Origin: Maribacter algarum (ex Zhang et al. 2020)
Lineage (GTDB): Bacteria; Bacteroidota; Bacteroidia; Flavobacteriales; Flavobacteriaceae
Assembly: GCF_005885635.1 (NCBI RefSeq)
Contig: NZ_VATY01000001.1
Span: 1,984,001 to 2,048,000, forward strand
Length of the DNA stretch: 64,000 nt
Direction of reading: 5' to 3'
In this document: piece by piece, positions 38,744 through 44,803 of the stretch
How positions within the stretch are numbered: position 1 is the stretch's first letter
How the letters are laid out: each line of letters begins with the position of its first letter
Made by a program: the position numbers and the translations under genes
Notes under the pieces: model-generated
The model's database searches: none
What the model was told of the DNA's origin: nothing
The model's input: the letters and a program-made list of their open reading frames with translations, nothing else

Positions 38744-38751
38744 TAATTTTG
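38744..38751 (+). promoter_or_regulatory. Putative -7 element of the metal-handling cluster
   Basis: TAATTTTG exactly matches TAnnTTTG and ends five bases before the ATG at 38757, implying a leaderless or nearly leaderless transcript. No strong -33 element is visible. Confidence 0.45.
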
Positions 38752-38756
38752 CACTA

Positions 38757-39173
38757 ATGCAAGAAGTATTTCATAAAATAATGTCGATTATAATGGCACT
38801 TTTGCTTTTGCTTTCCACAGTTTCGTGGAAGGTTGAAAAGCACTATTGCATGGGGCGCTTAATGGATGTTGCCTTATTCACTGATGTAGATACTTGTGGC
38901 ATGGATATGCCTATGTCGATGGATGATGAGAACCTTGGAGAAACCGAAAACTCTTGTTGTGATAATGAGGTGGTTTTTGTAGAAGGTCAAGATGATTTGA
39001 AGATTTCTTTTAATGATTTAGATGTGGAGCAGCAATCTTTTCTGGTTGCTTTTACTCATACATATTTACATTCTTTACAAAATGTAAAGGAACAACCCGT
39101 TCCGCACAAACTATACCCTCCACCCATTTTGGTCAAGGACATTCAGTTGCTTGACGAAGTTTTTCTAATTTGA
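38757..39173 (+). CDS. HYC_CC_PP-type small exported protein, candidate metal-binding
   Basis: 138 residues with an N-terminal hydrophobic signal (about residues 8-22). The three motifs that name the HYC_CC_PP family are present: KHYCMG near residue 30, SCCDNE near 62-67 and YPPPIL near 121-126. Between the first two lies a Met-rich stretch, CGMDMPMSMDDE, the kind of soft-metal ligand cluster used for Cu(I). The C-terminus is LLDEVFLI. The function of the family is unknown. As the first gene before an HMA-MauE fusion and a TonB-dependent receptor, it may bind or sense copper in the envelope, which is inference. The stop codon lies in the left arm of an inverted-repeat element. Confidence 0.8.
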   Translation: MQEVFHKIMSIIMALLLLLSTVSWKVEKHYCMGRLMDVALFTDVDTCGMDMPMSMDDENLGETENSCCDNEVVFVEGQDDLKISFNDLDVEQQSFLVAFTHTYLHSLQNVKEQPVPHKLYPPPILVKDIQLLDEVFLI

Positions 39174-39297
39174 TTTATTGTCATTCCCGTGAAGACGGGA
39201 ATCTATTTTCGGTTTAAACTCCAAAAGATGCTATAAACTTGGTATTGGAGGAGTTAATCGAACAATTTTCCCTTCGAGGAAATGACAATAAATCAAA
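39169..39297. repeat. Inverted REP-like doublet between the HYC protein and HMA-MauE genes
   Basis: Arms of 20 bases at 39169-39188 and 39278-39297 are complementary at 19 positions. Each arm leads into a copy of the unit TCATTCCCGTGAAGACGGGAAT, the second one degenerate (TCATTTCCTCGAAGGGAAA on the minus strand). The left arm covers the stop codon of the upstream gene. Two more copies in the same inverted arrangement lie at 46554-46635. Confidence 0.7.
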
Positions 39298-39305
39298 TAC
39301 AATTC

Positions 39306-40031
39306 ATGAAACATACATATAAAATCACAGGAATGACCTGCAACGGTTGCGTAGCTTCAGTTGCGGACGAGCTTTCAAAAATTGACGGGGTACAAAAAAT
39401 CGAAGTTAGTTTAGAAAGAGCTGAGGCCGAAATCTCAATGTCTTCGCATATTGCCCTTAGTGCCTTCAAATCAGCCTTGCCTAGTAAGTATTCAATAGCT
39501 GAAATAGGAAATCATACTTCAGGAATCACATCGAATTCCTCGGAAGAGAAATCAAAATTTCAACAATTGAAACCCTTGTTTTTGATTTTCCTTTATCTCT
39601 TTAGCGCAGGCTTTTTGCTAAACTATCAAGATTGGAATCTCGGTGAGTTTATGCTCGACTTTATGGGACTTTTCTATATCGTTTTTAGCTTTTTCAAGCT
39701 TCTAGATTTAAAAGGATTTCCCGAAAGTTTTCGCAAGTACGACCCCTTGGCAAAAGTATTTCCAGCTTATGGTTGGGCATATCCATTTATTGAATTGGCA
39801 CTAGGACTTTTATTCTTAATGCGACTTCAAATCACTGCTGCCCTTGTCATTACCATTGTGATTTTAGGAATAACGACCATTGGGGTCACAAGAACCTTGC
39901 TCGATAAAAAGAGCATTCGTTGTGCTTGTTTAGGTACCGCCTTACAACTACCCATGACAGAAGCGACCTTTATTGAAAACTTCATCATGTTGGTAATGGC
40001 AATCTCAATGTTGGTTATTCAATTTATTTAA
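39306..40031 (+). CDS. HMA domain fused to MauE/DoxX-like membrane domain
   Basis: 241 residues from the ATG at 39306; an in-frame ATG at 39282 lies inside the repeat element. The cytoplasmic N-terminal HMA domain (residues 1-68) has the metal-binding motif GMTCNGC. A linker and a membrane domain of about five helices follow, resembling MauE/DoxX redox-associated proteins. This carries FRKYDPLAKVFPAYGWAYPFIELALGLLFL and the Cys motif RCACLGTAL near residue 210. HMA domains carry Cu(I) or Zn(II), and MauE-type proteins serve disulfide or redox handling in the membrane. The fusion suggests coupling of metal delivery to thiol chemistry. It is followed by a TonB-dependent receptor seven bases later. 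Confidence 0.85.
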   Translation: MKHTYKITGMTCNGCVASVADELSKIDGVQKIEVSLERAEAEISMSSHIALSAFKSALPSKYSIAEIGNHTSGITSNSSEEKSKFQQLKPLFLIFLYLFSAGFLLNYQDWNLGEFMLDFMGLFYIVFSFFKLLDLKGFPESFRKYDPLAKVFPAYGWAYPFIELALGLLFLMRLQITAALVITIVILGITTIGVTRTLLDKKSIRCACLGTALQLPMTEATFIENFIMLVMAISMLVIQFI

Positions 40032-40037
40032 ACAAAA

Positions 40038-42308
40038 ATGAAACTATACATATATATAATATTAGGGGTATTGCCCGCACTTTCACTAGCGCAAGATAAG
40101 GTTGAAGGTATGGTGATGGAGGGTAATACTGAGAACAAACATATTGGTCTCCCCGGAGCCAATGTGTATTGGATGAACTCCCAAATCGGTACGATTACCA
40201 ATGATGAGGGATTATTCAGTATTCCCTTTTCAAAGGAATATAATAAGTTGATAATTAGTTATGTCGGATTTCAATCGGACACCTTAACCATCAATGAGCC
40301 AAAAATGGTACATCATACTTTAAAACCCTCGAACGAATTGGATGAGGTTGTGGTAGAAAAAAAGCGAGACGCTGTTCAAAAAGCGTATTTCAGTCCTCAG
40401 AATGTGATTACCGTAAATAGCGCTGAATTATTAAAAGCAGCTTGCTGCAACTTGTCTGAAAGTTTTGAGACAAACCCTGCGATTGATGTGAACTTTTCTG
40501 ATGCCTTGACAGGTACGAAACAGATTCAAATGCTGGGCTTGACGAGTCCTTATTTGTTAATTACTCAAGAAAATATTCCTATGGTACGTGGTGCATCGCA
40601 AGCTTTCGGGTTGACGTTTACGCCCGGTACATGGGTAGAGAGTATTCAAATTACCAAAGGTGCAGGAAGTGTCGTGAATGGTTACGAGAGTATTTCGGGT
40701 CAAATCAACGCGGAATTGGTCAAACCCTTAACGGACAAAGAATTATTCTTCAACGGCTATTTCAATAGAAATGGTCGTATGGAATTGAATACGCACATCA
40801 ACCGCAAACTCAATGATAAATGGAGTTCTGGTCTCTATATTCATGGGAATGCTAGAACTCAAGAAGTAGATAATAATGAAGATGGATTTTTAGATGTCCC
40901 TTTTGCCAACCAAATCAACATCATGAATCGTTGGCAATACCAAAACGCCGAAACCGGTTGGGTGAGTTTTTTAAATTTTAGATTTCTAAATGATGAAAAA
41001 CAAGTAGGACAGGTTGATTTTGACCCTGAAACTCAAGATGCAGTGAGAGGTTTTGGGAATGCAAGTTCGTTGAGCGGAGACGAAGCGTGGGGAAGCGAGA
41101 TTGCGACACGCCGTTTCGATACCTCTTTAAAGTTGGGATATGTTTTTCCTGAACTGCCGTTTCAAAGTTTTGGTTTTCAGGCATCCTATAGCAATCATGA
41201 CCAAGAATCGTATTTTGGTCTGAATCGCTATGATATAAATCATGAGAGCATCTATTCAAATTTGATTTTTAATTCAATCCTGGGAAGTACACAAAACAAG
41301 TTCAAAACAGGAATCACATTTGCTCATGATAGCTATGAAGAATTGGTAAACAATACTGATTTTTCTAGAGATGACACTTCGGTTGGTGCCTTTTTCGAAT
41401 ACAGTTATGATAATTTAGAGAAAGTAAACCTGACTGCAGGTCTTAGAATCGATTCGCATAACAGATTGGGTACATTTATCACACCTCGTTTGCATATTCA
41501 ATATACCCCGTGGGAAAGAGGAAGTCTTAAAGGTTCTTTTGGAAGGGGTAGGAGAGCAGCAAACATTTTTGCAGAGAACCAACAATTATTTGGCTCCTCA
41601 AGACAGATACAAGTTTTAGACTCCGAAGGGAGTATCTATGGTTTAGATGCGGAAGATGCCTGGAATTATGGAGTTAGTTTTCTTCAAGGATTTACTTTTC
41701 TTGATAGACCAGGTGATGTTACCCTCGATTTCTATAAAACAGATTTTAAGAATCAAGTTGTTGTAGATTGGGAAAACCCAAGGGCAATATCCTTTTACAA
41801 TCTAAATGGAAATAGTTCTGCAAGTAGTTTTCAACTAGAAGTCAATCACGAAATTCTACCGAAGTTGGAATTGCGAACCGCATATAAGTTTTATGATGTG
41901 AATACGGATTATCGTTCCGGAAATTTACAGAAACCACTGGTGGCGCAACATCGCTTTTTTGCCAATGTGGGTTATGAAACCACACTAACTGAGAAAGGTG
42001 GTCAATGGAAATTCGACTATACATTACATACGCTTGGAAAACAACGTTTGCCGAATACGGATGTGAATCCTGTAGAGTTTCGGCTGGGAGAATTTGCAGA
42101 TGGGTATAGCTTGATGAATGCACAGGTCACCAAAGTGTTTTCAGAACATTTTGAAATTTATGCAGGAGGTGAAAATTTGACTAATTTTAGACAAAATAAC
42201 CCTGTATTGAGTGTGGAAAACCCGTTTGGCGCAAATTTTGATACCAGTATTGTATATGCACCGATTATGGGGCGAATGATATATGGAGGATTTCGATATA
42301 AACTATAA
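40038..42308 (+). CDS. TonB-dependent receptor of the metal-handling cluster
   Basis: 756 residues with a signal peptide ending SLAQ (about residue 19). A carboxypeptidase-regulatory-like beta-sandwich (about 20-105) is followed by a plug (about 115-225) and a 22-strand barrel ending in MIYGGFRYKL. The plug starts with LLKAACCNLSESFETNPAIDV, with vicinal cysteines, unusual in an ordinary SusC- or siderophore-type receptor. GLTSPYLLITQENIPM and VVNGYESISGQINAELVKP are plug signatures. No SusD partner is present, so the substrate is more likely a metal complex than a glycan. It shares a run with two HMA proteins, and I predict soft-metal (copper) transport; the substrate is not shown by the sequence. 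Confidence 0.88.
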   Translation: MKLYIYIILGVLPALSLAQDKVEGMVMEGNTENKHIGLPGANVYWMNSQIGTITNDEGLFSIPFSKEYNKLIISYVGFQSDTLTINEPKMVHHTLKPSNELDEVVVEKKRDAVQKAYFSPQNVITVNSAELLKAACCNLSESFETNPAIDVNFSDALTGTKQIQMLGLTSPYLLITQENIPMVRGASQAFGLTFTPGTWVESIQITKGAGSVVNGYESISGQINAELVKPLTDKELFFNGYFNRNGRMELNTHINRKLNDKWSSGLYIHGNARTQEVDNNEDGFLDVPFANQINIMNRWQYQNAETGWVSFLNFRFLNDEKQVGQVDFDPETQDAVRGFGNASSLSGDEAWGSEIATRRFDTSLKLGYVFPELPFQSFGFQASYSNHDQESYFGLNRYDINHESIYSNLIFNSILGSTQNKFKTGITFAHDSYEELVNNTDFSRDDTSVGAFFEYSYDNLEKVNLTAGLRIDSHNRLGTFITPRLHIQYTPWERGSLKGSFGRGRRAANIFAENQQLFGSSRQIQVLDSEGSIYGLDAEDAWNYGVSFLQGFTFLDRPGDVTLDFYKTDFKNQVVVDWENPRAISFYNLNGNSSASSFQLEVNHEILPKLELRTAYKFYDVNTDYRSGNLQKPLVAQHRFFANVGYETTLTEKGGQWKFDYTLHTLGKQRLPNTDVNPVEFRLGEFADGYSLMNAQVTKVFSEHFEIYAGGENLTNFRQNNPVLSVENPFGANFDTSIVYAPIMGRMIYGGFRYKL

Positions 42309-42324
42309 CAACTAAAATAATAAT

Positions 42325-42684
42325 ATGAAAAAACTAGCGATTACAATAGTTCTTTTTATGGCGACTACAGTGGTTTTTGCCCAAGATAAAAATAAGAAAA
42401 TGACTATGGAGGTTGATGGTGTCTGTGAAATGTGTAAAATGCGTATTGAGAAAGCAGCTTTGGGGGTTAAAGGCGTGAAGTACGCTTTATGGGATGTGGT
42501 CTCACATGATTTGTCTCTCATTATAGATGAGCGAAAAACTGACCCAATGAAAATCAAAACGGCTTTGGTCGCAGTAGGTCATGATACAAAAGAGCTAAAA
42601 GCAACAGAGGAAGCTTATAACAAGGTAATGCCCTGCTGTAAGTATCGTGATGATGAGGTTGTGAAGAGTCACAAAACTAATTAA
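42325..42684 (+). CDS. Periplasmic HMA-domain metal-binding protein
   Basis: 119 residues with a signal peptide (LAITIVLFMATTVVFAQ, cleavage near residue 20). A single HMA-fold domain follows with the motif VCEMCKMRIEKAAL, a CxxC metal site near residues 34-37. After the domain comes a tail with a second cysteine pair, MPCCKYRDDE, near 105. A secreted HMA protein right after a TonB-dependent receptor could receive the metal in the periplasm and pass it to the cytoplasmic HMA-MauE fusion. The gene is 16 bases after the receptor gene. Confidence 0.85.
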   Translation: MKKLAITIVLFMATTVVFAQDKNKKMTMEVDGVCEMCKMRIEKAALGVKGVKYALWDVVSHDLSLIIDERKTDPMKIKTALVAVGHDTKELKATEEAYNKVMPCCKYRDDEVVKSHKTN

Positions 42685-42723
42685 AAGACTCCTTTTGTAA
42701 GGAAACGCAAAATTCTTTTACTA

Positions 42724-42767
42724 AATCCGTATCGCTCTGTGAAAAGGAAATGATACGGATTCTCTTT
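42724..42767 (+). promoter_or_regulatory. Terminator-like hairpin over the start codon of the next gene
   Basis: A 10-bp perfect stem (AATCCGTATC at 42724-42733, GATACGGATT at 42752-42761) with an 18-base loop is followed by CTCTTTTTT. The ATG of the downstream barrel gene (42750-42752) lies at the loop/right-arm border. It could act as a partial terminator or as a translation-blocking structure. Confidence 0.55.
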
Positions 42768-43721
42768 TTTAGCCTTTTTCTACTAGGCTGTCATCAGGTT
42801 TTTTCACAAACCTGTTGTTCAGGTGGTGTGCCTTTATCTAATAATTTGGGATTACCTAACGAAGGAAAAGGTTCTTTCACAGTAGGTCTAAATTATGATT
42901 ATAATAACCTGAATACTTTAAATGCTGGTTCCGATAAATTGAATGATGACTCGAGACTTCGCATTACTAATTCTATTTTACTTAATGCGGGTTATGCTAT
43001 TTCAGATAGATTTTCCTTGGAGGCACTTTTTACATGGGTTAATCAGACAAGAACCATTTCACAATTCGGAAATGAAAATTTTTCTGAAACGCAGGGTATT
43101 GGGGATGCCGTCTTTTTAGTGAAATATGCGATTCCAAATGTATTAGGTTCCCAATCGGTTTTCAACGTTGGTGTTGGAACAAAAGCGCCTTTTGGGAAGT
43201 CAGACTTAACAACAACTGAGGGATTTCAATTAACGGCTGATTTGCAACCCGGAAGTGGTGCCTGGGATCTCTTAGGGTGGTTATCCATCTCAAAGGGATT
43301 GAATTTTAGGCCATCGGCAACATTGTCAGGAAGTATTACCTATAGAGCTACTGGTGAGAATACATCTTATTTGAATAATACTTCCATATATGAGTTTGGA
43401 AATGTTGTACAGACCAATATTGGATATACAGACCAATTTTTGTTGTTCAACACCATAATCAATCCTGGATTGATCTTAAAGTATCGTAAGGCGTCTTCGG
43501 ATAAGGTAGAGAGCTCAGAGTTACCTAATACAGGTGGGGAATGGGTTTTCGTACGTCCCGAATTGGCTGTGAAAATTACACCGAGCGTAACCTTTAACTC
43601 AAGATTGGAAATTCCCTTTTATAGTTATGTTGAAGGTACACAATTAACGCCTACGCTTCGGTTTACGGCTGGAATTACAGTACTCCTAAAAAAGAATAAA
43701 GTATTGAACACTATAAATTAA
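42750..43721 (+). CDS. Outer-membrane barrel protein of the metal-handling cluster
   Basis: 323 residues. The N-terminus IRILFFSLFLLGCHQVFSQ is a signal peptide, with either signal-peptidase I cleavage after VFSQ (near 20) or a lipoprotein site at LLGC (Cys14). The mature protein opens with TCCSGGVPLSNNLGLP, again a vicinal Cys pair. It continues as a beta-barrel of alternating strands, ending LTPTLRFTAGITVLL. Similar proteins of Bacteroidota are labelled putative transporters of the phenol-degradation MetA type. The position after the receptor and periplasmic HMA protein suggests an outer-membrane role in the same pathway. A terminator-like hairpin covers its start codon, so its expression may be set below that of upstream genes. 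Confidence 0.75.
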   Translation: MIRILFFSLFLLGCHQVFSQTCCSGGVPLSNNLGLPNEGKGSFTVGLNYDYNNLNTLNAGSDKLNDDSRLRITNSILLNAGYAISDRFSLEALFTWVNQTRTISQFGNENFSETQGIGDAVFLVKYAIPNVLGSQSVFNVGVGTKAPFGKSDLTTTEGFQLTADLQPGSGAWDLLGWLSISKGLNFRPSATLSGSITYRATGENTSYLNNTSIYEFGNVVQTNIGYTDQFLLFNTIINPGLILKYRKASSDKVESSELPNTGGEWVFVRPELAVKITPSVTFNSRLEIPFYSYVEGTQLTPTLRFTAGITVLLKKNKVLNTIN

Positions 43722-43726
43722 ATGCT

Positions 43727-44803
43727 ATGAAGAAGAACATATTTTTATTCGCTTTTCTAACTATTTTGTTTTCGTGCAGTAAGTCAACTACGCAAGACTC
43801 ACCGCAAAACCCTGACTCTGTCGAGATCGAAAATACCTCGACTGAATGGAGTATTCCGGTCGCTGAGGTTTTGGATGGAGGTCCTGGTAGAGATGGTATT
43901 CCCGCCTTGGAAAATCCGCAGATGGTGACGGCTGCAAATTCCTCTATTCTGTTTGATACGGATTTAATTTTGGGTTACAAGAACGGAGATGATATTCGGG
44001 CCTACCAACATATCGTATTGGATTGGCATGAAATTGTGAATGATAATATCGGTGATGTTTCTCTAGCAATTTCGTATTGTCCACTTACGGGAACAGGTAT
44101 TGGTTGGAATCGAATAATAGATGGCAAAGAAACAACTTTTGGGGTTTCAGGTTTACTATATCAAACGAATCTTATTCCCTTTGACCGAGCTACCAAAAGC
44201 AATTGGTCACAGATTTTGAACGAATCTGTTAACGGCAGTCTGGAAGGGAAAAAAGCTGAGTTGATTCAGTTGGTTGAAACAGATTGGAAAACCTGGAAAA
44301 CAATGTATCCGACAACTACACTCATAAATTTAAATAATACAGGTTTTTCAAGAACTTACGGAGTGTATCCTTATGGTGATTATCGAACCAGTGATAGTAG
44401 GTTTTTCTTTCCAACACCGAAAGACCCGAGATTACCTCTAAAAGAAAGAGTTCACACTATAATCGATGATGGCGATGCGAAAACTTATCGTTTTTCTAAT
44501 TTCGAAACAACAAATACCATTAAGGATTCATTTAAAGGTAAAAACTACTTAATAGTAGGTAATGCCAACTTTATTACTTCTTTTGAGCTGGATGCGAACC
44601 AAAATAGTTTGGAATACGAATATGTTTTTGATAACTCGTCAGATGTGATAGTTCAAGATAGTGAAGGGACACAATGGAATGTTTTTGGAGAAGCAATTTC
44701 AGGTCCTGGTCAAGGGCAAAAACTAGTGGCTTCAAAATCATTTATGGGGTATTGGTTTTCTATTCCGGCATTTTACACTACTGAGATATACAACAGTAAT
44801 TAA
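43727..44803 (+). CDS. DUF3179 lipoprotein
   Basis: 358 residues with a lipoprotein signal (LFSC, Cys17). The DUF3179 signature is AISYCPLTGTGIGWNR (about residues 123-138). This family often has a CPLC or selenocysteine-containing motif; here the second position is Thr, so only one cysteine remains. DRATKSNWSQILNESVNGSLEGKKAELIQ and LVASKSFMGYWFSIPAFY also fit the family. Its biochemical function is unknown. It is the last gene of the metal-handling cluster, five bases after the barrel gene, and is followed by a bidirectional terminator. Confidence 0.85.
   Translation: MKKNIFLFAFLTILFSCSKSTTQDSPQNPDSVEIENTSTEWSIPVAEVLDGGPGRDGIPALENPQMVTAANSSILFDTDLILGYKNGDDIRAYQHIVLDWHEIVNDNIGDVSLAISYCPLTGTGIGWNRIIDGKETTFGVSGLLYQTNLIPFDRATKSNWSQILNESVNGSLEGKKAELIQLVETDWKTWKTMYPTTTLINLNNTGFSRTYGVYPYGDYRTSDSRFFFPTPKDPRLPLKERVHTIIDDGDAKTYRFSNFETTNTIKDSFKGKNYLIVGNANFITSFELDANQNSLEYEYVFDNSSDVIVQDSEGTQWNVFGEAISGPGQGQKLVASKSFMGYWFSIPAFYTTEIYNSN

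Follow-up and report, generated by a model that had tools for sequence, protein, structure and literature searches.

Two described systems, CutF and CruR, have established the kind of leader considered here, and the general idea of the present analysis was already anticipated by the CutF survey (PMC9973294, PMC9426467). In the cutFOG operon of Rhodobacter capsulatus, a pause of the nascent CutF chain is reported to keep a stem open, with translation of the next gene; CutF-like proteins are many in Bacteroidota and, overall, often lie upstream of resistance-nodulation-division (RND) efflux and TonB genes (PMC9973294). CruR works by a related route of opposite sign (PMC9426467). We analysed a window of 64,000 nucleotides from Maribacter algarum, of the family Flavobacteriaceae (contig NZ_VATY01000001.1, positions 1,984,001 to 2,048,000; source genome G000, 5.1 Mb, 99.9% complete), in which six open reading frames (ORFs) on the plus strand follow one another from 38757 to 44803. 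An initial annotation of this window had described the six genes as a candidate hand-over chain for a thiol-binding metal, recognised by recurrent adjacent cysteines. Our reading, to which we assign a probability of roughly 0.6, is that they contain an envelope operon for copper handling with a copper-sensing upstream ORF at its head. This leader would be the first gene, which encodes an HYC_CC_PP protein (38757-39173, plus strand, 138 aa; HYC in the following), and we infer from the sequence comparisons below that it is an exported copper sensor, a CutF/CruR-like form of the Bacteroidota with an RNA switch of its own.

Like CutF, HYC is a putative exported Cys protein of small size that precedes copper genes, with a Pro-rich C-terminus and a stem-loop predicted to hide the downstream start (PMC9973294). 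As in CutF-like proteins, it is shorter than 150 aa, has a signal peptide (judged by eye), and is followed by a co-directional gene within 1000 nt. Unlike CutF, which has a CxxxC motif, HYC uses HxC, CGM, and CC; its PP, 15 residues from the end, falls at or just outside the last-15-residue window of the CutF survey, and the TGA stop codon is itself part of its helix, which also covers the start region. Like CruR, HYC is the first gene before a TonB receptor, is of the exported type, and shows fixed spacing between the Cys motif and PP as well as a long intergenic region (PMC9426467). Unlike CruR, it does not belong to DUF2946, places its Cys motif about 72 residues from the end (48 in CruR), has a conserved helix where CruR has a Rho site, and also precedes efflux operons. 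Our literature search found no paper on HYC_CC_PP, on a helix that includes the stop codon, or on a receptor family that has CC in the plug and fusions to HMA, and nothing on the genes of this operon in the copper transcriptome literature for flavobacteria.

The HYC protein matches the NF047658 HYC_CC_PP model over its full length (118.6 bits against a curated cut-off of 28) and contains, behind a signal-like N-terminus, the motifs KHYC, CGM, SCCDNE, and LYPPP, the last belonging to a C-terminal YPPP-x15-stop arrangement, together with the Met-rich stretch MPMSM. The database name of the family merely lists motifs, although the family is present in 121 of the 125 good Flavobacteriaceae genomes sampled. 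We collected 145 distinct HYC proteins with a median pairwise identity of 42%, most of them 132-147 aa long with a hydrophobic N-terminus (assigned as a signal peptide by eye). The distance from CC to PP is 53-54 residues in 136 of 139 proteins, and exactly 15 residues separate PP from the stop in 136 of 145; the distance from HxC to CC is loose (29 to 42). Of the 145 genes, 140 end in TGA, compared with 11% (10.9%) of 1526 other ORFs at those loci, and ATTTGAT, comprising the last Ile codon, the stop codon, and a T, occurs in 129/145. Such a choice of stop codon is not explained by protein function. The Bacteroidota -7 promoter element TAnnTTTG was found within 120 nt upstream of 120 of the 145 HYC genes (83%) vs 19% of other genes, at a median distance of 14 nt from the ATG, so HYC probably has a transcript start of its own, also at loci with another gene ahead of it. 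In the window, a promoter-like element fitting TAnnTTTG (TAATTTTG, 38744-38751, plus strand) ends 5 nt upstream of the HYC start codon. The gene downstream of HYC is co-directional, lies at a median gap of 75-107 nt (typically 45-143 nt), and encodes CusA, HMA-MauE, or the receptor in 70 of 73 rows, in which some loci are counted twice.

The strict spacing to the stop, the TGA stop codon, the own promoter, the structured intergenic RNA, and the place before unrelated copper operons are the reasons why we regard HYC as a probable regulatory upstream ORF and not, as initially annotated, as a link in the hand-over chain. The earlier view makes HYC_CC_PP a true periplasmic copper-binding chaperone or buffer that cooperates with the receptor and HMA proteins. 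The secreted-type N-terminus, HxC, CGM, CC, the Met-rich stretch, the invariant Cys residues, and the linkage to copper genes would all agree with such a function. It leaves unexplained, however, the TGA stop in 97% of the genes, the constant spacing between the stop and both CC and PP, and the pairing of stop and start in the RNA; furthermore, the predicted HYC structure is poor, with a predicted local distance difference test (pLDDT) score of 59, too poor for a fold search, and the CruR model was likewise reported to be poorly structured (PMC9426467). We consider a purely periplasmic binder unlikely. No Pfam family, DUF2946 included, was found for HYC or for ten distant HYC-like leaders, one sub-threshold kiwellin match aside.

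A departure from CutF lies in the intergenic RNA between HYC and the HMA-MauE gene, which is bounded by a perfect 18-bp inverted repeat. The 5' arm (ATTTGATTTATTGTCATT, 39168-39185, plus strand) includes the final Ile codon of HYC together with its TGA stop, and the 3' arm (AATGACAATAAATCAAAT, 39281-39298, plus strand) ends 7 nt ahead of the likely HMA-MauE start. The HMA-MauE frame is open from 39282; we prefer the ATG at 39306 as the likely start because 39282 falls within the RNA helix and relatives begin with MKHTY (ATGAAACATACA). Among loci, the stop-proximal RNA of HYC pairs with the RNA immediately before the next start codon, the sequences varying while the helix is kept. Bacteroidota rarely use Shine-Dalgarno pairing. 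After removal of near-duplicates, we compared HYC regions having gaps of 60-150 nt with 486 control intergenic regions. A closing helix of at least 8 bp appeared in the minimum-energy fold of 94% of the HYC regions vs 35% of the controls. Native pairs of HYC arms gave -15.6 kcal/mol and swapped pairs -9.95 kcal/mol, compared with -10.2 and -8.4 kcal/mol for the control regions, and the z-score of arm complementarity was -2.4 for HYC vs -0.15 (p=4e-27). In 31 HYC-CusA regions, we counted 63 double-sided changes against 28 in shuffles (0/500), and 80% pairing, which dropped to 33-44% when the fold was slid. Helix 1, which holds the stop codon, barely varies and is thus little informative alone; in helix 2, compensatory changes were observed in 7 of 12 pairs. 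No Rfam family was found at the HYC intergenic RNA, and one sub-threshold match was judged to be chance. The same intergenic RNA carries a palindrome resembling a repetitive extragenic palindromic (REP) element (TCATTCCCGTGAAGACGGGAATCT, 39181-39204, plus strand), whose outer bases are part of the closing helix; this dispersed repeat has 23 genome copies with at most 3 mismatches and is not operon-specific. The hairpin at 39183-39202 within it had been considered as a terminator and was rejected for that reason.

These features suggest a mechanism in which HYC would be threaded into the Sec translocon during its synthesis. When the C-terminus of HYC is at the peptidyl-transferase centre, the CC motif about 72 residues back would be just emerging in the periplasm, as about 72 residues correspond approximately to the ribosome tunnel plus the translocon span. 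Copper bound by HxC, CGM, and CC could then act through the YxPP-x15 segment at the C-terminus to slow the final steps of translation. Paused there, the ribosome would sit on the stop codon, open the helix, and free the downstream start, so that copper raises expression; without copper, the ribosome would depart and the helix would mask the next start. In 43 leaders from other classes, CC lies 73 ± 5 residues from the C-terminus and HxC 36 ± 12 residues from CC, and their C-termini differ, being YxPP-x15, APP-x12-YA, or WQPPKxG at the very end.

Several observations weigh against HYC as such a sensor. PP is missing near the C-terminus in about a quarter (13/54) of the HYC-like leaders of other classes, and the bias towards TGA is weaker in leaders of other classes (10/24). 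Since PP is located 15 codons from the stop, arrest at PP itself would leave the ribosome short of the helix, and the arrest must therefore fall on termination or close to it. No pairs were returned by RNAalifold from an unguided MAFFT alignment, which is why the covariation counts, arm swaps, and control regions described above were used. Finally, binding of copper in the periplasm is, in principle, also conceivable for a conserved Cys protein that is secreted.

The sign of the response bears on what the operon does. If HYC had the polarity of CruR, copper would relieve the pause, the ribosome would leave, and the receptor operon would be switched off, making it an operon for copper uptake under limitation. 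CruR indeed heads the copper-repressed crtA/bfrG operon for TonB-dependent copper import (PMC9426467, PMC12914433), and the order of leader and TonB receptor genes is alike. The same leader and RNA architecture, however, also precede CusA efflux, which needs copper induction; in the source genome, an HYC paralogue heads CusA, CusC, a heavy-metal-binding protein, and CusB. A helix at the next start also predicts that a pause turns the genes on, and HYC has no DUF2946 match; we thus view repression by copper as doubtful. Because the same leader type precedes Cus efflux, induction by copper is favoured for both the efflux and the receptor operons. If the receptor operon is induced by copper, it would help to manage copper that is available or in excess, and not serve uptake under starvation.

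What follows the leader was delineated with two samples. In a near-relative set of 80 receptor relatives with their flanks, HYC, the receptor, and the periplasmic HMA protein are co-located in nearly all loci. These near relatives occupy a common chromosomal place, with purine-synthesis and GAF genes on one side and groEL on the other, and their gene linkage could be mere inheritance. We therefore widened the sampling to 392 Bacteroidota genomes, in 115 of which the receptor was found at E <= 1e-70, and read 60 receptor neighbourhoods from other genera, families, and classes. In most of these 60 loci, a small Cys-rich signal-bearing ORF lies upstream of the receptor, and a periplasmic HMA gene adjoins the receptor or sits between leader and receptor. 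An HMA-CC domain is fused to the N-terminus of the receptor in 8 of the 60 loci, spread across the phylum; such fusions are a direct sign that the receptor and the HMA-CC protein work together, and they make the metal hand-over testable. At two loci (L216 and L217), the leader and the receptor are separated by a protein that carries paired CPxTG/CMPC motifs and looks YHS-like by eye. The conserved core is thus HYC followed by the CC-receptor and the periplasmic HMA protein in either order. Genes of this row are conserved together, contrary to what the initial annotation had named as refuting it; its treatment of all six as one system has to be narrowed to this core. HMA-MauE is variable in location, being ahead of the receptor, behind the HMA gene, or absent. 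Within the operon, a P1B-type ATPase occurs in 22 and HMA-MauE in 44 of the 80 near loci, never both (Fisher p=1e-10, a value which ignores kinship). There is no genome-wide trade-off of this kind, as CopA scored over the cut-off in 7 of 16 genomes with HMA-MauE and in 8 of 12 without it; the exclusion between HMA-MauE and the copper ATPase is limited to the inside of the operon.

The cysteine motifs noted initially are all present in the ORFs, and they do not vary freely among homologues. The receptor (40038-42308, plus strand), with TonB receptor, plug, and carboxypeptidase-like domains, contains AACCNLS in the plug, in which C136 and C137 are Cys in 141/141 homologues, 60 of these from other genera, families, and classes. 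The secreted HMA protein (42325-42684, plus strand), with CEMC and the C-terminal MPCC, falls narrowly below the Pfam cut-off (22.1 vs 24.8); nonetheless, all four Cys residues, C34, C37, C104, and C105, are conserved in 121/121. In the HMA-MauE fusion (39306-40031, plus strand), C20, C23, C214, and C216 of GMTCNGC and RCAC are conserved in 48/48. Because they are invariant in every alignment made, including that of the barrel described below, chance is not an explanation of the Cys pairs. Copper from or at the receptor might be handed among the CC of the plug, the CxxC and CC of the periplasmic HMA protein, and the CxC of the membrane HMA-MauE or an ATPase. The MauE domain scores 63.5 (cut-off 27), and for the redox role once suggested for it we found nothing beyond the family name.

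Like CrtA and OprC/NosA, the receptor is a TonB receptor within a putative copper operon (PMC12914433); its family is set apart from them by two vicinal Cys residues that are invariant in the plug, an N-terminal carboxypeptidase-like domain of the Bacteroidota, and fusions to HMA. In CrtA, neither Cys nor Met is conserved (PMC12914433), and OprC binds copper via CxxxM-HxM (PMC11213822). The only Cys residues of the receptor are C136 and C137, followed by NLSES, so there is no CxxxM site. Its NCBIfam hits include no TIGR01778 (OprC/NosA) match, no sequence relation to solved copper receptors was found, and no PepSY gene is among the operon genes in the window, PepSY_TM downstream being a trait of CrtA. 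The plug is unmodelled in the predicted structure (residues 99-231, pLDDT about 25), which gives no place for CC in the fold.

Copper (or silver) is the best-supported metal from gene context. The ATPases occupying the HMA-MauE slot at the 22 loci carry CPC, N-x-YN, and MxFSS, which we take to be the P1B-1 copper motif set, and one sampled slot ATPase scored 592 bits against the copper model TIGR01511 (cut-off 397). CusA downstream of the HYC paralogue scored 655 bits to E. coli CusA vs 390 to ZneA, with all three Met residues of the CusA triad aligned, and a multicopper oxidase lies upstream at one receptor locus. These neighbours bear out the copper context initially suggested. The operon could be thought to serve another thiol-seeking metal, such as mercury, silver, or zinc, since its HMA domains also give hits to the MerP and MerTP models and the MauE/HMA architecture recalls MerT-MerP. 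As in MerT/MerP and MerTP, a periplasmic HMA protein is combined with a membrane protein having a Cys pair and a cytoplasmic HMA domain; unlike there, a MauE domain replaces MerT, the protein alternates with a copper ATPase, and mercury genes are lacking. Given the P1B-1 motifs of the ATPase partners, the Met triad of CusA (which also fits silver), the multicopper oxidase neighbour, and the absence of mer genes from what we saw, a metal other than copper seems improbable. No copper ATPase over the TIGR01511 cut-off was found in the source genome.

A wider proposal strikes us as evenly balanced between right and wrong: the widespread HYC_CC_PP family would be exported nascent-chain copper sensors forming a common Bacteroidota switch before Cus efflux and the CC-plug receptor operon, with a translational RNA element in which the TGA stop of the leader lies in one strand of the start-masking helix, and the receptor would represent an undescribed copper transporter family handing metal to an HMA domain. 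If HYC is a copper-sensing leader, copper control across the phylum would work largely at translation, and the signature of CC and PP at fixed distances, a TGA stop, and a closing helix would find regulated operons. For copper-linked receptors in the outer membrane of Bacteroidota, which until now have been OprC-like guesses, the receptor described here provides a concrete candidate.

The last two genes of the row encode a predicted outer-membrane barrel (42750-43721, plus strand), whose mature end begins with TCCSGG and whose C22-C23 is conserved in 24/24, and a DUF3179 lipoprotein (43727-44803, plus strand; DUF3179 score 254.8). The two genes travel together in about a quarter of the near loci, at times several kb away, and are therefore an accessory pair.

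Five leaders (L181, L182, L185, L186, and L214) end in WQPPKxG or WQPPRLA, nearer to the CruR/CutF pattern; in four of these, the receptor that follows has an HMA domain fused to it. The source genome has a third HYC copy (L125:9789-10211, G000:C1), located 393 nt ahead of a methyltransferase gene and with intergenic RNA without a clear closing helix; a methyltransferase also follows CusB at the Cus locus, and the third copy has the appearance of a duplicate left behind after losing its target. In the Cus operon led by the second HYC gene (L124:9785-19145, G000:C16), a lipoprotein-like ORF matching alpha-acetolactate decarboxylase has an odd location between the heavy-metal-binding protein and CusB. 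Another TonB receptor of the source genome (L158:6594-11978, G000:C16) has as neighbours a Fur-like regulator and a P-type ATPase of 656 aa that carries CPC and lacks MxxSS; this is probably a zinc locus.

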